Below are positions 783-22,638 of a stretch of 64,000 nucleotides of DNA, piece after piece. Under the pieces are notes generated by a model, which searched no databases, was not told where the DNA came from, and was given only the letters and a program-made list of their open reading frames with translations. How positions within the stretch are numbered: position 1 is the first letter of the stretch; each line of letters starts with the position of its first letter. The stretch is taken from contig MESL01000035.1 in assembly GCA_001770955.1 (NCBI GenBank), forward strand, positions 62,001-126,000. Direction: 5' to 3'. A program made the translations under genes and the position numbers. Source of the DNA: Burkholderiales bacterium RIFCSPLOWO2_12_FULL_65_40 (GTDB lineage: Bacteria; Pseudomonadota; Gammaproteobacteria; Burkholderiales; Burkholderiaceae_C).

Positions 783-1865
783 ATGCATTTTTTGATGTTC
801 GCCGCAGGGCTGGCCGCGCTGGTGGTGGGGGCCGACATTCTGGTGCGCGGCGCTTCCCGGCTGGCGCTGTCGTTCGGCATTTCGCCCCTGGTGGTGGGGC
901 TGACCATCGTGGCCTTTGGCACGAGCGCCCCGGAGATGGCGGTGTCGGCCGGGGCGGTGCTCAATGGACAGACGGGTCTGGCCATGGGCAATGTGGTGGG
1001 CAGCAATATCTTCAATGTGCTGTTCATCCTGGGGCTGAGCGCGCTCATTGCCCCACTGGTGGTGCATGTGCAGCTGATCCGGCAGGAGGTGCCCATCCTG
1101 ATTGGCGCTTCCCTGCTGTTGCTGATTCTCTCGCTCGATGGGCGCATCAGCCTGCTCGACGGCGGGCTGTTCTTCGGCCTGCTGCTGGCCTACACGGTGT
1201 TTCTGGTCGTGCAATCGCGCCGTGAGACGCAGGCCGCCCAGGCAGAGTTCGACGCCGAACTTCACGCTCCTCCGGCCGGGGCCTGGGATGCCCGCCTGCC
1301 GGTGCAGATCGCGCTGATCGTGGCCGGGCTCGGGCTGCTGGTGCTGGGGTCGGACTGGCTGGTCACCTCTGCGGTGGCATTTGCCCAGGCGCTGGGGGTG
1401 AGCGATCTGGTGATTGGCCTGACCATCGTGGCCGCGGGCACGTCCATGCCCGAGGTGGCCACGTCGGTGGCCGCCGCCCTCAAGGGCGAGCGCGACATCG
1501 CCGTGGGCAATGTGGTGGGCAGCAGCACCTTCAACATCCTGGGTTGCCTGGGACTCTCGGGGCTGGTGGCAGGCAGCGCAGGCCTGGCCGTGGCGCCTGC
1601 CTTGCTGGCGTTCGACATCTGGGTGATGCTGGCCGTGGCGCTGGCCTGCCTGCCGATCTTCCTGTCGGGCCGCGAGATTGCCCGCTGGGAAGGCTTCGTG
1701 TTCCTGGGCTATTACGTGGCCTATGTGACTTACCTCATTTTGTCCGCCCAGCATCATGCTGCCCTGGAAACCTATTCCACGGTGATGATGAGTTTTGTGA
1801 TTCCGCTGACGGTCATCACGCTGGTGGTGTCGCTGATCCGGCCGGGCAAAAGCCCCACGGGATAG
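783..1865 (+). CDS. Calcium/sodium antiporter (CaCA family, YrbG-like)
   Basis: Start refined to MHFLMFAAG; duplicated GTSAPEMAVS / GTSMPEVATS and GNVVGSNIFN / GNVVGSSTFN repeats. Confidence 0.9.
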   Translation: MHFLMFAAGLAALVVGADILVRGASRLALSFGISPLVVGLTIVAFGTSAPEMAVSAGAVLNGQTGLAMGNVVGSNIFNVLFILGLSALIAPLVVHVQLIRQEVPILIGASLLLLILSLDGRISLLDGGLFFGLLLAYTVFLVVQSRRETQAAQAEFDAELHAPPAGAWDARLPVQIALIVAGLGLLVLGSDWLVTSAVAFAQALGVSDLVIGLTIVAAGTSMPEVATSVAAALKGERDIAVGNVVGSSTFNILGCLGLSGLVAGSAGLAVAPALLAFDIWVMLAVALACLPIFLSGREIARWEGFVFLGYYVAYVTYLILSAQHHAALETYSTVMMSFVIPLTVITLVVSLIRPGKSPTG

Positions 1866-1904
1866 GGAGGGTCAACGCTGCAAGGGCGCGCAAAGCCCAT
1901 CGCC

Positions 1905-1922
1905 GGGCTGGCGCGCCAGCCC
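1905..1922. repeat. Perfect 18-bp palindrome GGGCTGGCGCGCCAGCCC between convergent genes; possible transcription end signal
   Basis: Read directly; no clear T-run follows. Confidence 0.4.
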
Positions 1923-2046
1923 TTCAAGGTCCGTCTGCCACAGGTTTTAGCGCAACGGCTGCGGTGGACCAAGCGCAACGCAGGCTGCAGCCCGAGTGTG
2001 CCAGCATCGACATAGGTTATGCTACGAATCAACCCCTCGGCCTCTT

Positions 2047-2745
2047 TTAGCGCGAGGCTACTAAAGTCGCTGTTGTACCGTCCCATACCACTTGAGTGCT
2101 CAGATCGCGCGTGGCAACGACTTTCCCATTGACATAAACATTGGTCTTGAGTGCGTATTTGCCTTGTGGTGCACCTTGAGGAAGCTTGAGTTCAAAGGCG
2201 TTCTCGAAACGACCCGCAGAATTCGAGGAAAAAGACTTGCTGCCAGTCTTGAATGGAGTGCCGTCAGGGCTAAAAACCACCAACTCTTCTCGAACTTCGC
2301 TAACCTTCTGGCGACTGCCGTTGACCAGTTCCAACGTCGAGTTAACGTTTATCGGCTGCCCACGCTGCACTACTTCCTTTTGCAATCGAGATGAGTAAAC
2401 GGTAACCACCGGCTCCGCCGGCAATGCGCTACTGGTACGAATATAGTCTCGCTCCGCCTGGGCTGCCGTTTTTGTCTGTCTCGACTGCAAGTTAATGGCA
2501 AAGCAAACAGCTGCACCCACGGCAGCGCCCACTACCGCCCCCTTTGCAGCATCTCTACCACGTCCACCAGAGAGAACGGTAATAAGGGCTACCGCAGCCG
2601 CACCAGCTGCAGCACTCTGACCCACACTGCATGGATCACTATCGGCAGCACTTTGCTGACTCCCTACTGGCCCTTGGGTGTTTGCGCAAGCAACCAGCAG
2701 AGCCGTGACCGTCATGTAAATTAAGGTGCGTTGAAAGGTTTTCAT
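2047..2745 (-). CDS. Putative lipoprotein with glycine-zipper segment and C-terminal Ig-like/beta domain
   Basis: Signal MTVTALLVACAN (lipobox LLVAC); GAVVGAAVGAAV glycine zipper; last gene of six-gene minus-strand operon. Confidence 0.65.
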   Translation of the reverse strand: MKTFQRTLIYMTVTALLVACANTQGPVGSQQSAADSDPCSVGQSAAAGAAAVALITVLSGGRGRDAAKGAVVGAAVGAAVCFAINLQSRQTKTAAQAERDYIRTSSALPAEPVVTVYSSRLQKEVVQRGQPINVNSTLELVNGSRQKVSEVREELVVFSPDGTPFKTGSKSFSSNSAGRFENAFELKLPQGAPQGKYALKTNVYVNGKVVATRDLSTQVVWDGTTATLVASR

Positions 2746-2800
2746 TTAGATCATTGGTTTGTTGAGGCTCGAATACTTGAATTTCCGATTCACACTGACG

Positions 2801-4042
2801 TCACTTGATCGAGGTTTCCTCGTTGAGATACTGTAATTCGCGCTCTCTGATGCGGCGTGAGAGTACGTTCGCTTGGGAATTTTTGGGATCGACACGGAGG
2901 GCGCTTTCGACATAGGTCTTGGCGGTGTCAAATTTCATCTGGCGCAGCGCGGCCTCAGCATCGCGCAGGAAACCTTGCGCCATTTCCGACTGGACATTTA
3001 CCGCAGGCGGCGACACCGGTGGTAAAGGTGCCACATGATGAGGTTTTGTGACAGGTGGCACGCTTTGCGATACAGAGGGAGACGATGAAACGACGGTCGG
3101 CTGTGGTGGACGCTCCTGCGTTCTAAGGGCTGTCTGCAGCTCCTGGCGCAGGGCTGTCAGACCCGAAAACTCGCGGTTACTCGCTACGACCTTGTCCAGC
3201 GCCTCTCTCGCTGATTTAAGGTCGCCCATCGCCAAGAAATTCCGTGCCTCCGCGTCAGCGGAAGCAGCGCTAGCCAGGCCGACATTGATTTGACCGCGCA
3301 AGTCACTGCCCACGGCGCCATCGACGCAGGTGCTTCCCAGTTGATCAATGGCATTGCGCGCGCTCGTGAGGCGGCGATCAACAATCATGCTTCCTATCTG
3401 CCGAACACTGCGCTCACAAGCAGCTCGGGCTGCGATCGCCTTGTCTGCAACTGCAAGCATGTGCCGTGCCTTGGTCTGTGCCTCCCCATTGCACGCCGCC
3501 ATGGCCATCATGGTCTGGTTGCGCGCACTGGCGGCGTCACCGCCGGTCATGAAGCTCGCCGCTTTGTTCAGTGCCTGCTCACAAGGATCCGGCTCCCGGC
3601 CGGAATTGTTCTGGATGTACAGCCCACTGCCAGCCACTAGTACGATACCAAGCACCAAGAAAACCCATTTTCCTGTCTTGCTCTTGCCACTGTTTGATAC
3701 TCCCGTTTGAACGCCAAGTTCGGGCGAAGGCAATGGCGCGCGCTCCTTGGGCGTGGCTTTTCCGGATGGCGCGGGCGGAGACGGTTTGGCGGGGTTAGTC
3801 GGCGAATCAGACTTTGGCGCCGAAACGGCTGGCGATACGGGAACGGCGCCGGGCCTTGTATCAACCGGCGGTTGCTCAGCATTGGGCTCGGCCTGATCCG
3901 TCAGAGTCGTGGAAGACTCCAACACTGACTGGTAATCGGCTGCGACAGACGCGGCTATCGCAGCGCAGCCGCAATATGGACAGTATCCGACCGTTTCGTA
4001 TAGGCGCTCGTTACAGCGGTGGCAGTTGAAAGACACTTCCAA
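2801..4042 (-). CDS. Zinc-ribbon / proline-rich linker / single-TM protein with helical-repeat C-terminus
   Basis: N-term CHRC...CPYC; Pro-rich linker; TM WVFLVLGIVLVAGSGLYI; helical Cys-containing C-terminal region. Confidence 0.7.
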   Translation of the reverse strand: MEVSFNCHRCNERLYETVGYCPYCGCAAIAASVAADYQSVLESSTTLTDQAEPNAEQPPVDTRPGAVPVSPAVSAPKSDSPTNPAKPSPPAPSGKATPKERAPLPSPELGVQTGVSNSGKSKTGKWVFLVLGIVLVAGSGLYIQNNSGREPDPCEQALNKAASFMTGGDAASARNQTMMAMAACNGEAQTKARHMLAVADKAIAARAACERSVRQIGSMIVDRRLTSARNAIDQLGSTCVDGAVGSDLRGQINVGLASAASADAEARNFLAMGDLKSAREALDKVVASNREFSGLTALRQELQTALRTQERPPQPTVVSSSPSVSQSVPPVTKPHHVAPLPPVSPPAVNVQSEMAQGFLRDAEAALRQMKFDTAKTYVESALRVDPKNSQANVLSRRIRERELQYLNEETSIK

Positions 4043-4059
4043 GAGTTCTCACTGATTCT

Positions 4060-7000
4060 TCAGGTTAGGGGCGGAGGCATGTGCGAAGGACTCTGTCTCT
4101 GAAGTAGCGGCGTGAGTTCTGCCAACTGACTCAGCTCCATCCACATCGGCAGCCCTTGGCGCCAAACCTTGGTTCCCGCCAGACTGATTTGGCCACCAGC
4201 AAGCATCTGCACCAGTTGCTGCACACCATAAGGGCCGTACTGGACCCCGTTGACGCCGAGATGATACTGGTGATCGACAGGCGGTGGCATCCCACCCAGC
4301 GGCGGAGGCATGATCCCAGACATGGCAGGGGGTACGCCGGGCGCTGTGGCAGGGTAGACCCCAGTGTCAGTCGCGGTGGTCTGCGTCGATAGTCCGACTG
4401 TCGCAGGCTGTACTGTCAGTAGCGCGTCAAGTCCTCCGGGTTTTATCATCTCCGCGTTAATCAGGTACTTCAGCCGTGGTTGACCATCTTCGCCGGGCTC
4501 GCGCACCTCCCAGTCATAGGCATCGGCATCGGAATCACCAATGACCGACGCCCAGGGCCGGAGGTCGTTCAATAGCCGAGTCACGGCCTGCTTCAGCTCC
4601 CTTTCGGAAAGCCCCTTGCGTCTAGCCCGGTCACACAGATCCTGCTTAGCCTCAGCCGCAATTGCGCTGGCGAAACCCTTTCGCACCTGTTCAGCGCCAG
4701 TGGCATCGGACACCAATTTGGCGGTGTAGACCGCCGTTTCGTAATATTCACTAAGTGCGACGAGTGCTGCAAGCTGCAACGTTCCTGCTTCGGCGATGTG
4801 CTCTTGAACGCGATCGACGATAGCTTCGCGATAGGCCATCGGAAGACCGTTCTGACGGATAGCGCGTTCGTTGCCAATACGCCGTACATCACCGCGAGCT
4901 ACAGCGAATTGATATTGCCCCGGCGGCACAGAACGCTGCGTCGAACGTGTCAACACCCCGGTCATTACCGCCATCAGAAAATATTTAAAGTCCTCCGCAA
5001 GGCGGTTGATTTCGTCTGCAGCTGGCGCAATAGGATGGCTGAATTGCGTGGAATCGATATGCGTGTGTGTAGGGCTGCGCTCGGATTCCTTGCGATAGCT
5101 TGTACGCCAGCCTTCCAGCCCACGGAGCACTGTCAGCGGTACGCCAGACAACTCGCAATAGCAGACCGCTCTGCCCGGTACGCCGGTTTCAACGATGGAG
5201 AGCTGGGCGGGGGTAATGCCTGCATGGGTCGGCATACAGGCATTAAGCTCGTGTTCGTACTTGCGCTTGAATTCGTCTGCGCCAGCCACGCCTATAAAGC
5301 ACTTGTACTGATCCGCACGCACAGTAAAGTCACCAGATAAATTAGCGTCTATCCAAGGCATTGCGCAGGCCAGTAGCTTGCGAAACGCATCCTGACGGGC
5401 AACCGGGCTCATTTGCTCCAACGCTTCTGTCAGGGGATCCGCCATGGCTTCAGCAGCAGCATCACTGCCAGCCACAGCCAATTGGCGCTCAGCCATGCGC
5501 TTGACCTTGACCAAAATCTGGCCACGTTCCTCGGCCTCCGCCAGCATCGGGAACATCACCTTGGAGCCACCCAGATCCTTAAAAGCTTCGTCAGCCCACT
5601 CCCGCAACTGGGCAGCGCCGGGCATGGGCACTTTTCGATCCTGCACGGGAATGTTGATAAGCGTTGCGTGATCTTTCTTCAACTCCAACTGGAGGATGGC
5701 ATTTGCCCGCTGTAGCTGCTCAAGCATTGTCATCACCGCTTCGCGGCCCGCTTGCAACTCACCGACCAGCCCGCTCCAAGTCGCACGGCCATGGGCATCA
5801 ACCCCAGTCTTACGCCCCATCCAGGAGGACAATTCGCCCATCAGCGCAGCCGCTTCATCTGCGGCCTTTGCACGCAGATGAAACTTAATACCATTGGCAA
5901 TTTCGGTGCGCAGTTGATCCATGACCATGACGGCTTGCTTTTCCCCGCCGCCAAAGAGACCTCCTTTGGTCTGCTCCAAATTTGTTAAAAGTCGCTCAAC
6001 CTCACGGCTGCGCACAGCCTCCTTGATCTCCCGATAGCGCTCCGCATTGAGCATGAGTGCTGCGATCACTCCACTGCCCGTAGCCTCAAGACGATCCTTG
6101 ATTTGTTCCACCAAGGAAAGCACATACTCAAGCCCGCCAAATTCCTTGTTGTCGAGGTACGTGTAGAGTTGGTCACGCACGGTTCTCTTGATCCTTTCCA
6201 GCACCTCGCGCCGACGCTTGGCTACCCTGTCCTCTGTGGTGTCGGCCGTCGAGTCTTGGTCGCGCACGGCATCGCGCTCCAGTTGCTTGACGGCTTCGCG
6301 CACCTGCACCGACCACTCCTTGCGGTCAAAACCGGTGCGAATCTCATCTACACGGCTATTGACGCGCTGCTCGACACCCGCCAGCAGCAAGCCATTTTTA
6401 TCTTGCAACAGATCGTCAACTACAAAGTAGTCTTGGAACTCGCCTGAGCTTCGCTTGAGTTCAATAGACTTGTCCGAAAACTCGGGAAAATCACTGAAGA
6501 TGGACACACGCAAATTCACATGGCTCGCCATGAACTCATCGCGCTGCTTGTCTGTGGCGCGATTGGCCCCTAAATCAGCCCCTCCCACACCAAAAAACGC
6601 TTTGAGCATCTCGCCTGCCCAACGATGCGACTGCTCATCCCGACGTGCCTCTTGGCGCGTGTCCAGTACCGCTTGGCCCATTGCCGAAAATCGCTTGGAG
6701 TATGACAAGCGCATGTCAGGGAAGCGGTTCTTGGGTACCAGCGCATCGTGCAGAAAATTCTTGTGCTGAGCCTGGTTAACTGCAATTGAACGCTTGCGAC
6801 GCGCAAAATCGCCTGAGGCAAAGTCCTCGAACAATGCATCCGCCACCATGTGGTAGACATCCGTGACGTCTTTGGTATGCTGCTGCGCTAAGTTGCCGGA
6901 GTCGATCAGGTAAACCTCGTTGTACGGCTCGCGCGGCAGCTCGGGCTGGTCATAAGCATCCCACCGGCCCAAATAACCTTTGTTCCCCATCATGGCCGAT

Positions 7001-7806
7001 TCAAGCTCCATCAACGCAGCGTAGCCATTTGCCTCGGTTCGGTCTTTATTGGCGCCAGCAAAACCGGTGGGAAGAAATAGCATTAATTCCACATCGGCGC
7101 TTCCGACCTCCGTCTTGGCCAACCAACGCGCCAGCAGACCCATATCCAGAAAGGCCCCAGATCCCGTGCCACCCGCCACGGAACCAACCACCACGATACG
7201 GAACTTGCTACTTTCCATCTTGAGCCCCAACTGATTAAGTTGGCGTTCGTGGGAAAGGCCTGCTTTCAAATTTTTTAGCTTCAGGCGTATCTTGTCGCGG
7301 ACTTTTACGTATTTGTCGAAAAAATACAGTCGTGAAATGGCGCGTATTTGACCAGCCCCCTTCGCGGGATCAATGCCGAGTTCTCGAATCTTCTTCGGCG
7401 TCAGTGACAGCCAGTCTTTGATGTGCGGATAGCGCTCTAACGCATCATCATCGCGGCTATATTTATCCATGTCGAAGGATTCGACAATTTTGTCCTCATC
7501 GCTGAACTTCACCTGATCAAACTGCAGGTCTTCTGCTTGAGCACGGCCACTGTCAATCACGGCTCCACTGTCCAAATCGAACTGTATAAATTGCGCAATC
7601 GGAAAGTCTGCCAGGCTGTCCACCCGGCTTCGCGTACCGGAGCCACCCCACAGCGTATTCAGGATACGCCTGCGTACGCGCATCAATACTTCCATGCCGG
7701 TACCACCGACGCCAATGAAAAGCGTCGGGCGCAGATCGATACTTGCCTCTTGCTTGGGTACTGAATCAACCCCGTTACCAATTGTCTGATTGAAACTATC
7801 CGCCAT
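4060..7806 (-). CDS. Tubulin/FtsZ-superfamily-like protein (Tubulin_2-like) with C-terminal GYF_2-like domain
   Basis: N-term TLFIGVGGTGMEV (T1-like) and VVGSVAGGTGSGAFLDMG (T4 GGGTGSG-like); Pro-rich segment then YHLGVNGVQYGPYGVQQLVQMLAGGQISLAGTKVWRQGLPMWMEL resembling GYF_2. Confidence 0.8.
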   Translation of the reverse strand: MADSFNQTIGNGVDSVPKQEASIDLRPTLFIGVGGTGMEVLMRVRRRILNTLWGGSGTRSRVDSLADFPIAQFIQFDLDSGAVIDSGRAQAEDLQFDQVKFSDEDKIVESFDMDKYSRDDDALERYPHIKDWLSLTPKKIRELGIDPAKGAGQIRAISRLYFFDKYVKVRDKIRLKLKNLKAGLSHERQLNQLGLKMESSKFRIVVVGSVAGGTGSGAFLDMGLLARWLAKTEVGSADVELMLFLPTGFAGANKDRTEANGYAALMELESAMMGNKGYLGRWDAYDQPELPREPYNEVYLIDSGNLAQQHTKDVTDVYHMVADALFEDFASGDFARRKRSIAVNQAQHKNFLHDALVPKNRFPDMRLSYSKRFSAMGQAVLDTRQEARRDEQSHRWAGEMLKAFFGVGGADLGANRATDKQRDEFMASHVNLRVSIFSDFPEFSDKSIELKRSSGEFQDYFVVDDLLQDKNGLLLAGVEQRVNSRVDEIRTGFDRKEWSVQVREAVKQLERDAVRDQDSTADTTEDRVAKRRREVLERIKRTVRDQLYTYLDNKEFGGLEYVLSLVEQIKDRLEATGSGVIAALMLNAERYREIKEAVRSREVERLLTNLEQTKGGLFGGGEKQAVMVMDQLRTEIANGIKFHLRAKAADEAAALMGELSSWMGRKTGVDAHGRATWSGLVGELQAGREAVMTMLEQLQRANAILQLELKKDHATLINIPVQDRKVPMPGAAQLREWADEAFKDLGGSKVMFPMLAEAEERGQILVKVKRMAERQLAVAGSDAAAEAMADPLTEALEQMSPVARQDAFRKLLACAMPWIDANLSGDFTVRADQYKCFIGVAGADEFKRKYEHELNACMPTHAGITPAQLSIVETGVPGRAVCYCELSGVPLTVLRGLEGWRTSYRKESERSPTHTHIDSTQFSHPIAPAADEINRLAEDFKYFLMAVMTGVLTRSTQRSVPPGQYQFAVARGDVRRIGNERAIRQNGLPMAYREAIVDRVQEHIAEAGTLQLAALVALSEYYETAVYTAKLVSDATGAEQVRKGFASAIAAEAKQDLCDRARRKGLSERELKQAVTRLLNDLRPWASVIGDSDADAYDWEVREPGEDGQPRLKYLINAEMIKPGGLDALLTVQPATVGLSTQTTATDTGVYPATAPGVPPAMSGIMPPPLGGMPPPVDHQYHLGVNGVQYGPYGVQQLVQMLAGGQISLAGTKVWRQGLPMWMELSQLAELTPLLQRQSPSHMPPPLT

Positions 7807-7838
7807 GGCCTGAGCCCCCTTCTTTTTATCTTCGTTGC

Positions 7839-8264
7839 TTACTTACGGCCGGTGCTGAGCATCAAAAAGAGCGAGAGCAAGCTTACAAATCCAACGGGGC
7901 CAAGGAACAGTGGCGTCATGAACTGGGCTGCATTTATCGCCAACAGCACCACACCGGTAGCCGCACTGGCCAAAAAGAAGAATAACCACCACCCCGCAGC
8001 ATTCGCTTTATTGGGGGGCACTCGCTTGCCCACCAGTGTGTTGGCATAAGCGTTCTTGGCGAAGAAAAAAGCCACAAATAACACCAGTAAAATGCCGCCA
8101 CCAATCGCCAAATCTCGGGAGGACGTATCGGACACCACGTTATAGGTGCCCTCGAATTTTTCTCCCGGAGGCAGAAGAACGGTGGCGGTGGTAGTGGAAG
8201 CCGCTGGGACTTCCACTGGTGTAGGCAGTGCGAAGCCTGTGTTGGCCTGAGAGGTTTGTGTCAT
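7839..8264 (-). CDS. Small membrane protein (about 3 TM segments), operon member
   Basis: Hydrophobic stretches IGGGILLVLFVAFFF, WWLFFFLASAATGVVLLA, LFLGPVGFVSLLSLFLML; same strand with short gaps. Confidence 0.6.
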   Translation of the reverse strand: MTQTSQANTGFALPTPVEVPAASTTTATVLLPPGEKFEGTYNVVSDTSSRDLAIGGGILLVLFVAFFFAKNAYANTLVGKRVPPNKANAAGWWLFFFLASAATGVVLLAINAAQFMTPLFLGPVGFVSLLSLFLMLSTGRK

Positions 8265-8305
8265 TTTTAGTGGTCCTATTCACAACATAGTTCTTGTAAA
8301 ACAAT

Positions 8306-9883
8306 TCAACGGCTGATTATGCTAAGGCTACGCCCAACTATCACACTCAATACCTGTGGCCGACCAAATCCACGCTTTATCTCACCGACTGGATTGCCGT
8401 CACTGTCCTTGATACTAATTGTCGTAAATGGCCTGAGAACGTAGTTTCGCTTTACGCCATCCACCATCACCTCGTAGCGTTTATCGGTCCGCAAGACTAC
8501 GAGCATGGCAATGATTCCGACGATCAGAAGTAGAATGCCGCCCAATATGGCAAACACCGGTGTGAGCGGGTACTGAATGCGCAAAAGCAGGGGAACCCGT
8601 GTCTGTGATGCGCGCACGCTCTCCGGTGGCGTGAAAATTTCAGAAATCGGGTCGCCCGGAAAAAGCTCGCGCAACTGGACCGTGAAGGCTTCCGATGGCG
8701 CTAGCTGTTGCCCTGCCAAGCCCATCTGGATTACCAGCGGCAGCTGTACCTGCTTTCCCATCGCTGCAAGAGCCTGAGCAGACCAAGGCGACGGCACCTG
8801 GGCCATCGGCAAAGTGAAACTGACTTCTACAGACTGCTTGGCGCCAGGCCGCAAATCCTGAATAACCGAGGGGGTCACTTTGACGGCTGATCGCCGGTCG
8901 CCGACTAGCAAAGCTGCCTCGACTTCCGCTTTGCTAATCACATAAGGATAAAGAAGATTCTCTATTGATGCCTGTAAGGTCACCGACGGAACCAAGCCAT
9001 CTGCCCCGACGTCCAGAATGAGGGTACGTTGGTCAGTACCCAGACTCACTCGCACATTTGCGCTGTTCTTGACCCCCTCTGGAACCAGGCGCGCTGCATC
9101 CTGGTCGACAGGCTTGAGCCGTGCTGGCTCGTGCGTAAGCACCTTACTCAGACGGCCCTCGGCCATGATGCGATCGAGCGCTGCAGCCGCAGGCTGACCG
9201 TAAGCCAAGGCATAGACCATGAGACCCGTAGCCTTGAAAAGCTTGCCTTGCACTGGCATCTTGAGAGGGAACACCAGAGTCTTGGTGATGGAGGGCTCAA
9301 GGTGCAACAGACGATAGAAATCGCGGTTCCTGTCCGCCGTTTGCGAATCGTTATTGGGGCTGTTCTTGTTGTTCGTGAATATCCAGAGAATGCCCGATTC
9401 CGCGTTGAAAGGCCCGGTGATCGCCTTGGTGACTGCTTCCTTGAAGTCAGTGTCCGCCATCCCCCCCCCCGGGCTCTTGCGAGCAACGGCCAACGAAGCA
9501 ATGGACTTCGCCACATCGGCTCCGCCAAGACTCTTGGATAGCAACATCGGCGATTTGTGGCTGCCGCTGCTTTGACTGAATGCCAGCGTGTACACCGTAT
9601 CCTCGGGAGTAGTGGTCGCACGCGCCACGGCCGCAACCAAGGGCTTGAATTGCGAGATGGGGTCAGTGTAGAAGGGCTCCATCCACCCTGAGTTTTGCAC
9701 CAGAAATGCCTGCTGAATACCAGCAGCATGTACGGCGCCTCCCCAAGAGAGCCCAACCAAAACCACGGAAACCATGTTGAGGCCATGCCGAATGAGTCCA
9801 CGCGATGCGGCGCACGCGAGCGTTTTGTTCAGCCTTGTCTTAAAGCAAGGTAGCTGCATCATCTTCATGCTCGGAGATCCCAT
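8306..9883 (-). CDS. Secreted/membrane-anchored vWA-like protein with degenerate MIDAS and C-terminal TM plus cytosolic tail
   Basis: Signal sequence; LVQNSGWM in place of DxSxS; ILWIFTNN; TM VFAILGGILLLIVGIIAMLVVL; 19-bp overlap with preceding gene. Confidence 0.6.
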   Translation of the reverse strand: MGSPSMKMMQLPCFKTRLNKTLACAASRGLIRHGLNMVSVVLVGLSWGGAVHAAGIQQAFLVQNSGWMEPFYTDPISQFKPLVAAVARATTTPEDTVYTLAFSQSSGSHKSPMLLSKSLGGADVAKSIASLAVARKSPGGGMADTDFKEAVTKAITGPFNAESGILWIFTNNKNSPNNDSQTADRNRDFYRLLHLEPSITKTLVFPLKMPVQGKLFKATGLMVYALAYGQPAAAALDRIMAEGRLSKVLTHEPARLKPVDQDAARLVPEGVKNSANVRVSLGTDQRTLILDVGADGLVPSVTLQASIENLLYPYVISKAEVEAALLVGDRRSAVKVTPSVIQDLRPGAKQSVEVSFTLPMAQVPSPWSAQALAAMGKQVQLPLVIQMGLAGQQLAPSEAFTVQLRELFPGDPISEIFTPPESVRASQTRVPLLLRIQYPLTPVFAILGGILLLIVGIIAMLVVLRTDKRYEVMVDGVKRNYVLRPFTTISIKDSDGNPVGEIKRGFGRPQVLSVIVGRSLSIISR

Positions 9884-11358
9884 CCATCAAGCCTGTTCAG
9901 CAAAGGGTGGTAAAGCCAAAGACGGCCGTCGTGCATGAAGACGCGCACGCGCCGAGGTTCAGTGACGGAAACTGTGTAAAAGACCGTTTGGCTCGTGTCA
10001 TCGTCCAGAACCAATTCGACTCGCATGCGTTCGCTTGACTTGATCACATCGGCCAGACCAACTGTCGTCGCCAGCTTTAAACCCAATACAGCCGAACTGG
10101 TCGTGGATTCAAGCATGGGCAACACCACCTCATCTGTGCCACTGTCATCACCATGCTCGGGATCGTGCCAAGGCGGGCTCTTGTATTTCGCCGCAAATCT
10201 GAAATTAAAACTGCCGGTAGAAAGGCGGGGCACCGTGGCAGCATGGGACTCGGGCTGGTCGACGCCCAGCTGTAGATAGACATACCTTTCCCGCTGCGAA
10301 TCAAAACACAGTTGCCACAGACCACCGTCCCTCTCCAAAAAAGGGCAGCCAAACTCGAATTCCGGATGCACACCTTTTGGCCAAGCAATAAACCTGGCCT
10401 CCAGCGCACCGCTGGCTTGCTTGCGCAAGACCAGTTGCCCCGCATCTCCCGGCCACAGCGCCATGCGTCCATCGGCCAGCGGGGCATGAAATCGGCCCTG
10501 CGCGTCCGTCGGAAGTTCGACAGTGGCACCCAATTCCCCATTCTGGGTGACGCTTATAAACCGGAGCGAGGAATCTTCCGTACGCAACGGCACCCACACC
10601 TGTTCGCCGAACTGCACCGGTGCTCCAATAACCGGCGCCCCTCCGAGGTAATGCACCCGAAAATTCAAACCCATGCCATCGGGTTCAAAGCAGGCCAACC
10701 CCTCTTCAGTAGGCAGGAAAAATATACTGCGGCGATCTTCGCAGGCCACTTCACAACGCCAGTCAGCACGATGAAGGCTGCTCACAGCCAGCATGCCACC
10801 AGTGATATGCTCCAGTGGCTCCCAGCGCTGGGATGCCGGCAGCCATCCGTAAACCATCCCTTTGTCAGGATCCAGGGCCAAAAGCATGGGGGCGCGGGTT
10901 TCTGCCTGGATAGAGAAGAACTCGTAATTGCCGTGCGGCGGCAATGCGAGCACCGCATCCGGATCGCCGTCAGGTCGACGTTGCGAACGGTGGCCCAACA
11001 CCATGGGAATAACGGTCTGTCGCAGGCCACGTGCGAGACGGTTGCCACGTTGGAAAGCAGGCAGAGCACCAAAAGGCGGGATCCATGGGGAGGTAAATGG
11101 CAGGGATTTCTGTCGTAATAGAAGGGTCCCGGAAATTGTGCAAAACTTGAACTCTGGGGGAAAAAGTTTTTGGGGCGCAGCATCCTCTACCCCCGCCTCC
11201 AGCAGCCATGCAACGTCAGCTGGATTGAGCGCTTTAGAGACGGGGCGACCGAAGGCACTCAGCACCAGTGCAAACCCTGGAACCTCACCGCTCTGCATCC
11301 AGGTTCCTGATGCTAGCGGCCAAGATTTCAGTAACTCCCCCGTTTCTTTTTGGCTCAT
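9865..11358 (-). CDS. Uncharacterised protein, possibly beta-propeller-like; first gene of the operon
   Basis: ORF 497 aa, repeated beta-rich segments, no signal peptide seen; strand and spacing consistent with operon. Confidence 0.5.
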   Translation of the reverse strand: MSQKETGELLKSWPLASGTWMQSGEVPGFALVLSAFGRPVSKALNPADVAWLLEAGVEDAAPQKLFPPEFKFCTISGTLLLRQKSLPFTSPWIPPFGALPAFQRGNRLARGLRQTVIPMVLGHRSQRRPDGDPDAVLALPPHGNYEFFSIQAETRAPMLLALDPDKGMVYGWLPASQRWEPLEHITGGMLAVSSLHRADWRCEVACEDRRSIFFLPTEEGLACFEPDGMGLNFRVHYLGGAPVIGAPVQFGEQVWVPLRTEDSSLRFISVTQNGELGATVELPTDAQGRFHAPLADGRMALWPGDAGQLVLRKQASGALEARFIAWPKGVHPEFEFGCPFLERDGGLWQLCFDSQRERYVYLQLGVDQPESHAATVPRLSTGSFNFRFAAKYKSPPWHDPEHGDDSGTDEVVLPMLESTTSSAVLGLKLATTVGLADVIKSSERMRVELVLDDDTSQTVFYTVSVTEPRRVRVFMHDGRLWLYHPLLNRLDGWDLRA

Positions 11359-11554
11359 TTTTTTACGTCGATTTACAGTTGCGAATCACGATAGCACAAA
11401 TGATTCTAAATCAGCAGCCGAACTTTTTGCGATCTGTACGCTAAGCGGAATTTCGCACGATTTCATTCCATGATGGTTTCGCCGTGATTCAAAAGCCGAG
11501 TGCAAATGCAGTAAATGCAACATTTTTTGACATTAATCAATCCAGTGCTCAACC

Positions 11555-12310
11555 TCATTCCCCGTCCAGCGTTTTGGCGCTTAGGGGCATGCGGTAAATC
11601 CACACCACACGCTCACCGGGCAGACGCAGTTGCGCTTGCGGCAGGGCGCCGGGCACGGCAAATTCCAGGCTGACCAGCCAGGTGCCCGGTGCCATTTCAG
11701 CCTGCGCCTTGGCAGCGGCGCGCTCCATGCTTTCGGGCCGCTGAAACAGATAGACAAGTTGGTAGCCACTCCAGTCGGTGCGCCACATGTCGCCCCGGCG
11801 CACATGCGCCCAGGGGCAACGCAGCGCGCACAGCAGGCGCAGCGGCCAGCTCCACTCGACCCCCTCGATGCGTGCGCCGGGGTAGGCGCGGCGCAGCGCC
11901 AGCAGGCCATCGCCCAGGCCGCAACCCGCATCGAGCACGCGCGCGCCCTGCGCCAGTGGAAGCTGGGCGGCCAGACCTTGCAAAGCGTCGTGGGGCGTCG
12001 GAAACAGCGGCGCATCGCGCCAGGCGTTGAGCGGATAGACCGCCAGCAACAGCAGCAGCGGAACCAGCCAGGCCCAGGCTGGCACGGCTGCCAGGCCCGT
12101 GAAGGCCAGCGCCAGCGGAAACCCGGCGGCAATCAACCCACGCCGCCACCAGGTGCTGCCCAGCACACTGGCAGCAACCGCCACCATGCTCGCCAGCAGC
12201 AAGGCCAGTACCGGGGTGGTGACGCGCTGCAGCGCGAAAAACAGCAGCCACGCACCCCCCCACGCCAGCAGCGCGGGCAGGGGCCAAGGGGGGCGCAACA
12301 GCCAGGCCAT
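11555..12310 (-). CDS. Class I SAM-dependent methyltransferase with N-terminal TM segments
   Basis: VLDAGCGLGDGLLALRRAYPGARIEGVE motif I. Confidence 0.75.
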   Translation of the reverse strand: MAWLLRPPWPLPALLAWGGAWLLFFALQRVTTPVLALLLASMVAVAASVLGSTWWRRGLIAAGFPLALAFTGLAAVPAWAWLVPLLLLLAVYPLNAWRDAPLFPTPHDALQGLAAQLPLAQGARVLDAGCGLGDGLLALRRAYPGARIEGVEWSWPLRLLCALRCPWAHVRRGDMWRTDWSGYQLVYLFQRPESMERAAAKAQAEMAPGTWLVSLEFAVPGALPQAQLRLPGERVVWIYRMPLSAKTLDGE

Positions 12311-20904: not shown

Positions 20905-21261
20905 TCAGTGCGACAGGATGAAGCGCACCAGATTGAGAATCTGTGCCTCGTCCTCGGATCGGACGGTCTTGTGCGTCTCTTCCTCGTCGTCGATCATGAT
21001 CCTGGGCCCCGTGGTGATGTGCTTGACCAGCACCGCCACGGCATCGTCCCGGCCCCGGTACTTCTCGGCAATGGTTTTCAGGGAGGGGCCGGTGCGCTCC
21101 CTGGCCGGGGCATGGCATTTGGTGCAATGGCTCTTGCGGGCCAGGTGTTCGGCGGCCTCGGCATCCACCGTCTGGGCTTGCGCGAACGGGGCCAGCATCG
21201 GCAGCAGCAGCGCAGCCGACCGCAGCCAGAAAACAAAGGAAAAGCGATTCATGGTCTGCAT
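20905..21261 (-). CDS. c-type cytochrome (class I)
   Basis: Signal peptide; CTKCH haem motif; GPSLKTIAEKY. Confidence 0.85.
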   Translation of the reverse strand: MQTMNRFSFVFWLRSAALLLPMLAPFAQAQTVDAEAAEHLARKSHCTKCHAPARERTGPSLKTIAEKYRGRDDAVAVLVKHITTGPRIMIDDEEETHKTVRSEDEAQILNLVRFILSH

Positions 21262-21396
21262 CTCGCAGGAACGGACCCCCGCAAGGGCCCAGGAACACGG
21301 CGCAAGCCCAGCGGTACCCAGCGTCGAACGGTCAATTGCAACAAATGTAACGCAAAACCCCTGTTCGGCCAGTGGGTTTTCCCGGATTGCCGGAGC

Positions 21397-22638
21397 CTAC
21401 GGCAACGGCCGCTGCCGCCACGCCAGCAGTGCGCCCAGCCACAGCGCACAGGCGGAAAACACCAGGCCCCGCGGCAGACCGCCCGCGCCGTCGGCAATCA
21501 GTCCCACCACTGTGGGCCCGACGATCTGCCCGGCAGCAAACACCACGGTGAACGCACTGATGCCTGCCGCCCATTGCGATGGCGGCAGGTTGTGCCGCAC
21601 CAGCGCGGTGGTGGACGCCACCACCGACAGAAAGACACCGCCAAACAGCAGACCCGAGAGCAGCGCCACCGGCCACGCTGTCGTCAGCGCGGGCAGCACC
21701 GTGGCCACACCCAGCAGGGCATTGAGCCGGGCCAGCGCCCCGCCGCCCCGGCTGCGGTCCAGCAAACCGGCCCAGATGCGCGAGGACAGCACCACGGCCA
21801 GCCCCAGCAGCGCATAGAACAGCGTCACCGCACCGCCCCCCACGCCCTGCGCGCGCAGCAGCGCCACCACGAAGGTCATGTAGCCGATGTAACCCACGCC
21901 AAACATGGCGTAGCCCGCCAGTGCGGGTGCGAAGTCCCGGGCACGGAAGACCCGACCGGCCCGCGCATCGGCCGGTGGCGCACCCGGGGCCGTGGCGGGC
22001 AGGGGTGCTGCGGCAGCAGCATCGAGACGGCGCAGCACCCGCACGGGCCAGACCATTACCGCCGTGGCCACGGCGCACGCCAGTGCCAGCGCCCACCAGG
22101 CCCAGGTCCAGGCGTGGGGCCCCGGCGCGGCAGCCAGCACGGCGGGCACGAGCAGCGCCGAGAGGCTGATGCCCCAGCCCGTGCCCCCGTAATACAGCCC
22201 CAGCAGCAGGCCGCTGCGCGGCGCATCCAGCGCGCCCAGGCGCGCCGCCATGAGGCCACCCGCAATGAAGATCAGCGCGCTGGCCACACCGGCCAGCAGG
22301 CGCTGCAACAGCAGCGAGGGCGCATCGAGAAAGAATCCGCACAACCCCATGAACAGCGTGGCCAGCACCGCGCCCCCCAAGAGCAGTGTGCCCGGGGCCT
22401 GGCGGCGCAGCAGCAGGGGCGTTGCCAGGGCGCCCAGCAGATAGCCCAGCGCATTGATGGTGTTCATGCCACCGGCCAGCGTGTACGACCAGCCCAGGTC
22501 TTCGCGCATGGGCGGCAGCAGCAGGGCATAGGCAAAGCGCGTGATGCCCAGCGACACCGCCGCCCCCATGGACAACGCCAGCGCCAGCCACAGCGCCTGC
22601 GTGCGCGCCAACGGCTCCGGAGAAAGACGGTTGTGCAT
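21397..22638 (-). CDS. YbfB/YjiJ family MFS transporter
   Basis: LGITRFAYALLLPPMREDLGWSYTLAGGMNTINALGYLLGALATP. Confidence 0.88.
   Translation of the reverse strand: MHNRLSPEPLARTQALWLALALSMGAAVSLGITRFAYALLLPPMREDLGWSYTLAGGMNTINALGYLLGALATPLLLRRQAPGTLLLGGAVLATLFMGLCGFFLDAPSLLLQRLLAGVASALIFIAGGLMAARLGALDAPRSGLLLGLYYGGTGWGISLSALLVPAVLAAAPGPHAWTWAWWALALACAVATAVMVWPVRVLRRLDAAAAAPLPATAPGAPPADARAGRVFRARDFAPALAGYAMFGVGYIGYMTFVVALLRAQGVGGGAVTLFYALLGLAVVLSSRIWAGLLDRSRGGGALARLNALLGVATVLPALTTAWPVALLSGLLFGGVFLSVVASTTALVRHNLPPSQWAAGISAFTVVFAAGQIVGPTVVGLIADGAGGLPRGLVFSACALWLGALLAWRQRPLP

Follow-up and report, generated by a model that had tools for sequence, protein, structure and literature searches.

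A conserved operon around a Tubulin_2 protein with a GYF domain, a candidate envelope-spanning complex of Proteobacteria

What does a tubulin relative do in an operon of putative membrane and envelope proteins, in a bacterium that also has an ordinary FtsZ? This question is raised by a stretch of 64,000 nucleotides from Burkholderiales bacterium RIFCSPLOWO2_12_FULL_65_40 (contig MESL01000035.1, positions 62,001 to 126,000; in the following the window), in which an earlier note had read six minus-strand open reading frames (ORFs), here A to F, as one operon around a protein of the tubulin/FtsZ superfamily. All six ORFs are present between 11358 and 2047, with a spacing of 17-55 bases and one 19-base overlap of B with A, and because more than 80 independent loci contain relatives in this order, they are coding and not chance frames. 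We observed a common gene set in constant order that is inherited together, and in D a tubulin fold with conserved GTP loops. With chances somewhat below even, we assume that the operon encodes one envelope-spanning complex under the control of the tubulin-family GTPase, which would act as a switchable scaffold that connects the cytosol and the inner membrane with the periplasm.

The assignment of D to the tubulins is based on several lines of evidence. In Pfam it matches Tubulin_2 (PF13809) over residues 29-349 with an E-value of 1.6e-55 and 189.3 bits (cut-off 27), and Pfam also detects the C-terminal GYF_2 fusion that the earlier note had pointed out. A Foldseek comparison of the AlphaFold model of residues 1-1195 (predicted local distance difference test, pLDDT, 84.7; predicted template modelling score 0.73) with the PDB returned tubulins or FtsZs for all of the 50 best matches, with template modelling scores of 0.31-0.51 when normalised by target length, because only the GTPase half is shared. 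The model continues with helices at 474-710 and a mixed, largely helical region at 730-1120, which correspond to a coiled coil and a helical C-terminal part. An alignment of 44 members revealed that the loops T1 (GGTGM), a T3-like DxD and T4 (AGGTG[SA]G) are invariant or near-invariant, the T4 G-box being present in all 44, which bears out the GTP-binding loops expected for a tubulin fold. Reading the alignment by hand, we tentatively place T6 at the conserved N305, which takes the place of the guanine-binding asparagine of FtsZ, and T7 at S-x-[DE]333-F-A after a long helix, at the position of the FtsZ motif NxDxxD. As this T7 loop keeps one acidic residue and not the second, hydrolysis on assembly is uncertain, and polymer-coupled GTP hydrolysis cannot be assumed from these residues. 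When D was checked for PF00091 together with the FtsZ C-terminal domain, only PF13809 matched, and the FtsZ_C / Tubulin_C assembly half was not recognised by Pfam. Since the ordinary FtsZ is encoded elsewhere in the genome of the window (G000:C34), D is not the division protein. The GYF domain matches that of Myxococcus AgmX/GltJ (PDB 7z3c, E-value 3.7e-10). In Pseudomonas sp. MF4836 a second, shorter Tubulin_2 + GYF_2 gene (810 amino acids) lies directly downstream of the operon (L083:15383-17815), which suggests a tandem partner tubulin.

To follow the gene set beyond the window we used 84 loci from Alpha-, Beta- and Gammaproteobacteria, which had originally been found through D: 79 come from named genomes, four are whole-genome or plasmid loci, and one is the window itself. 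A profile search on their six-frame translations recovered 84 ORFs for A, 81 for B, 84 for C, 87 for D, 74 for E and 25 for F. Wherever it is readable, the order A-B-C-D is identical, save for sorting artefacts of overlapping stop-to-stop frames; the exceptions among the complete loci are two from Azospirillum. E follows D in most loci that are not cut by a contig end, and loci lacking E mostly end just past D or are alphaproteobacterial. The expectation that six genes travel together therefore holds for A to D and usually for E, whereas F is an optional member that occurs in only about 25 of the 84 loci. Because the loci had been found through D, B was also searched alone. It was detected in five of 300 genomes of the order, exactly the five in which a separate search found a full-length D, and among 369 genomes of the class only in the window's own genome. 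Of the 62 genomes of a Massilia-like genus, 59 have B, 58 have D and three have neither; the one mismatch comes from a fragmented assembly of 84% completeness in which B is partial. This matched presence of B and D across genomes indicates one unit that is kept or lost together, and in the Massilia-like genus the operon is near-core (58-59/62). The earlier note had named a missing tubulin fold and homologs without partners as outcomes against its reading; neither was obtained for A to D of this subfamily, whereas the broader Tubulin_2 family is accompanied by caspase, DUF4384 and OmpA genes elsewhere in the same bacterial family. The subfamily is also present in culturable Janthinobacterium and Pseudomonas. 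One genome of the Massilia-like genus has two copies of the system (G855:C13), and in four others (G815, G816, G844, G845) D is a variant with a higher score, perhaps a window-like subtype. Clustering of the flanking ORFs for further conserved partners yielded only lineage-specific chromosomal neighbours and reverse-frame artefacts.

The partner proteins probably distribute over cytosol, inner membrane and envelope, in agreement with the earlier note, with the membrane topology taken from hydropathy. B is predicted to be a secreted, membrane-anchored protein, whose AlphaFold model (pLDDT 88.8) contains an alpha/beta domain at 57-245, beta-sandwich domains, a transmembrane (TM) segment at 446-464 and, on the cytosolic side, a small beta domain. 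The motif FLVQNSGWM occupies the position of the metal-ion-dependent adhesion site (MIDAS) DxSxS of vWA domains, and FTNNKNSPNND follows a later strand. In an alignment of 48 members Q63, S65, G66, W67 and M68 are invariant and DxSxS is replaced by QxSGW in every member (motif QxSGWM), which suggests a changed function rather than decay. The model topology is compatible with a Rossmann-like vWA domain lacking the canonical MIDAS; Pfam VWA hits are sub-threshold and limited to 2-3 of the 48 members, and Foldseek on the full model returned mostly Ig-like and other beta domains and did not confirm a vWA fold. Thus the degenerate vWA of the earlier note agrees with motif, secondary structure and weak Pfam hits, and we keep the label vWA-like as a description of motif and modelled topology. 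The expected three TM segments of C were found, together with a conserved GFxLP motif in its N-terminal tail. For A no TM segment or signal peptide was found; its relatives in the Massilia group start with the zinc-ribbon motif CPxCG, of which the window copy has a degenerate form (FCTISG). The propeller proposed for A is plausible but weakly supported, with Reg_prop in one of 52 members and sub-threshold PDB matches to BamB only. In E the predicted zinc ribbon, Pro-rich linker and TM segment were recovered with a TPR part in addition; its CPxCG zinc ribbon is invariant, and the linker contains 23.5% Pro versus 4.9% in the periplasmic part beyond the TM segment (mean of 29 members). The E protein of Stenotrophomonas (L088:13703-14944) carries TonB_C (E-value 2.6e-18) in place of TPR, and its arrangement of zinc ribbon, Pro-rich linker, TM and TonB_C recalls GltJ; TonB_C occurs in this one of 29 E proteins. 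In one locus, E is followed by a further protein that has 12 Sel1 repeats and begins like a zinc ribbon (L057:14944-16887). For F, described earlier as a glycine-zipper lipoprotein, the glycine-zipper matches are weak and the lipobox LLVAC was read directly.

For the contacts, switching, polymerisation and biological role of such a complex we propose the following scheme. D would bind GTP via the standard tubulin/FtsZ loops and, at the cytosolic side of the inner membrane, would oligomerise or switch. The most concrete contact predicted from the sequences is a docking of the GYF domain of D on the Pro-rich cytosolic linker of E, and the zinc ribbon of E might provide a second one. A may serve as cytosolic adaptor, so that A, D and the zinc ribbon of E would form the inner-face part and B, C and E the inner-membrane part. 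B would relay the cytosolic state to its periplasmic vWA-like domain, which may no longer bind ligands in the usual metal-dependent way. Toward cell wall and outer membrane the complex would be extended by E (TPR or TonB-like) and, in loci that have it, by the lipoprotein F. Most likely the complex would have a housekeeping role where the operon is kept, namely to position envelope structures or to remodel them. Some observations weigh against this scheme: both Azospirillum loci carry A-C-D and B was not detectable in them by profile search, the Pro-rich linkers of E are mostly devoid of the PPG motif of eukaryotic GYF ligands, and the second acidic T7 residue of D is not kept (position 336 is mostly N or R). 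A more mechanical proposal, which we regard as doubtful, is that the tubulin-family GTPase is the cytosolic switch of a trans-envelope machine, in which GYF/Pro-rich docking on a TonB/Glt-like transducer would switch a metal-free vWA domain in the periplasm to another state, and a signal or force would pass through the envelope with no cytosolic filament.

Other explanations differ mainly in what D is supposed to do. If D forms polymers that bend the inner membrane or draw it into tubules, as remodelling or vesicle-forming filaments of the kind proposed for FtsZl1, the other proteins would be anchors; the tubulin fold and the long helical region of the model as well as the family-level proposal with vWA and membrane partners in the main text of Makarova and Koonin (2010; PMC2875224) are in line with this, but the unrecognised assembly half and the non-conserved second catalytic residue of T7 make it unlikely. 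The operon could alternatively be a force-transducing surface machine like the Glt gliding complex of Myxococcus, with the cytosolic GTPase coupled via the zinc-ribbon/GYF/TonB-like membrane protein to the outer membrane. The homologous GYF domain, the TPR parts and the zinc ribbon-TM-TonB_C arrangement of one E protein fit such a machine; as GYF and zinc ribbon are on different proteins, TonB_C is limited to that single E and a proton-driven motor (AglRQS/TolQR-like) was not seen in the operon, the host genome not having been searched for motor or MglA genes, we judge it improbable.

A similarly low probability is given to an anti-phage or other conflict system. D would then be a threshold switch that activates an effector, on the pattern of the GTPase/tubulin systems that Kaur et al. 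(2020) described. Caspase, DUF4384 and OmpA genes neighbour both Azospirillum A-C-D loci and other Tubulin_2 loci of the bacterial family of the window (L032, L033), Aureimonas has a gene for a trypsin-like protease downstream of D (L101:13898-14989), and the window copy looks horizontally acquired. The operon itself, on the other side, contains no recognisable effector, PADLOC models gave no match for the six proteins, and D relatives are absent from viral contigs. Furthermore, the near-core distribution in the Massilia-like genus is unlike patchy defence islands and argues against a defence role there; it was this distribution and the missing PADLOC match that led us to rate a defence system low.

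Features of the operon and its surroundings in the window
Feature	Position	Strand	Description
Gene A	9865..11358	-	497 amino acids; without signal peptide or TM; predicted cytosolic; possible beta-propeller
Gene B	8306..9883	-	525 amino acids; signal peptide, vWA-like domain, beta-sandwich domains, one TM, small cytosolic beta domain
Gene C	7839..8264	-	141 amino acids; three TM segments
Gene D	4060..7806	-	1248 amino acids; Tubulin_2 GTPase domain ~29-349, long helical region, C-terminal mixed domain, Pro-rich linker, GYF_2 1181-1231
Gene E	2801..4042	-	413 amino acids; cytosolic zinc ribbon (CxxC...CPxCG), Pro-rich linker, one TM (126-144), periplasmic TPR-like part
Gene F	2047..2745	-	232 amino acids; lipoprotein (LLVAC lipobox), glycine zipper, probable beta-sandwich domain; optional member
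Low-GC stretch	1501..12000	.	coincides with operon

Gene E starts with TTG, which is supported by the conserved zinc-ribbon cysteines starting within ten residues. A minus-strand ORF of 104 amino acids overlapping the end of F (1772-2086) has no Pfam match and is probably not a gene, and promoter and terminator scans gave only chance-level results. The GC content of the low-GC stretch is 0.53-0.60 compared with 0.64-0.70 in the flanks, Tubulin_2 is absent from both sampled genomes of the same genus, and the alignment of the methyltransferase-ParB neighbourhood of these genomes with the window stops at 11586, beyond which they carry other genes. Low GC, absence in same-genus relatives and the synteny break together make the operon look like a horizontally acquired insert, and in the tree the window copy groups with Rhodoferax antarcticus and Variovorax. 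At the matching chromosomal position a relative of the same genus has apparent lipoprotein genes and not the tubulin operon (L126:2212-5955), so that this place beside parAB may be variable. A phage or virus origin of D was rejected, as no relatives were found in the viral contigs of IMG/VR and the sole phage match concerned the GYF domain. Outside the operon, one 1.5-kb bin (21001-22500) shows an unusually strong AT skew (0.318).

Among known systems, the text of Kaur et al. (2020; PMC7159879) places tubulin-vWA sets with GAP1 GTPases from Firmicutes and Actinobacteria among conflict systems. The GAP1-N2 GTPase-tubulin-vWA systems described there share with our operon a coiled-coil tubulin-domain protein and resemble it in a TM-anchored vWA protein (vWA-like in the case of B), but the operon has no GAP1 GTPase, FNIII-repeat component or recognisable effector and comes from different phyla; Pfam detected no GTPase of the GAP1 kind among the six proteins or in the adjacent methyltransferase gene. 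Closer to the window, in its own bacterial family, two Tubulin_2 loci (L032:5531-13420, L033:4333-12310) combine caspase-domain, DUF4384, OmpA and glycine-zipper or TPR genes. They have the PF13809 protein in common with the operon, and the glycine-zipper gene of L032 is distantly related to F, but they contain caspase-like proteins and no relatives of A, B, C or E. An Azospirillum plasmid locus (L006:7439-23057), with relatives of A, C and D, no detectable B, three caspase-family genes, DUF4384 and OmpA genes, is an intermediate between both kinds.

The Glt/Agl machinery of Myxococcus uses the small GTPase MglA and couples a cytosolic GTPase to the envelope, and its GltJ carries a cytosolic zinc ribbon and a TonB part. 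It is driven by the AglRQS motor (PMC3169522) and contains no tubulin-like protein. The GYF domain of D is homologous by sequence to that of GltJ, and the succession of zinc ribbon, TM and TonB_C has its parallel in one E protein; we regard the resemblance as an analogy and not as membership. In the operon, a tubulin relative with a GYF domain akin to that of the Myxococcus gliding complex stands beside a zinc-ribbon membrane partner.

The class to which the operon belongs, which the earlier note took to be possibly described in part, was published in 2010: Makarova and Koonin (2010; PMC2875224) introduced the family of D as FtsZl1 and predicted an unknown membrane machine and membrane remodelling with vWA partners. 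Their main text reports an N-terminal FtsZ-like domain, a coiled coil, a helical C-terminal part and vWA and membrane-protein neighbours, which have their counterparts in our operon (with B as a vWA-like neighbour), and T6-H7 elements that were not identifiable. According to the same text, OmpA, P-loop GTPase or kinase partners are frequent but not obligatory, and the adjacent vWA usually has an intact MIDAS; here the metal site is non-canonical, the composition is fixed, and Pfam found no OmpA, P-loop GTPase or kinase among the six proteins, a Ser/Thr kinase gene preceding A only in Endozoicomonas (L054:5180-6061). A Polaromonas locus in the reviewer text has a TRAP-type neighbour, unlike the present operon. 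The 2010 main text, supplementary tables apart, mentions no GYF domain, zinc-ribbon partner or propeller, and the module A-B-C-D-E with its GYF and zinc-ribbon parts is not named there or in the text of Kaur et al.; in the literature searched, no experimental study of FtsZl1/Tubulin_2 proteins was found. The operon is therefore a well-defined new form of the class of FtsZl1 with vWA predicted in 2010. Whereas most described operons are variable, this one has a fixed core of four to five genes, and its fixed composition together with culturable hosts makes a 15-year-old prediction directly testable by genetics.

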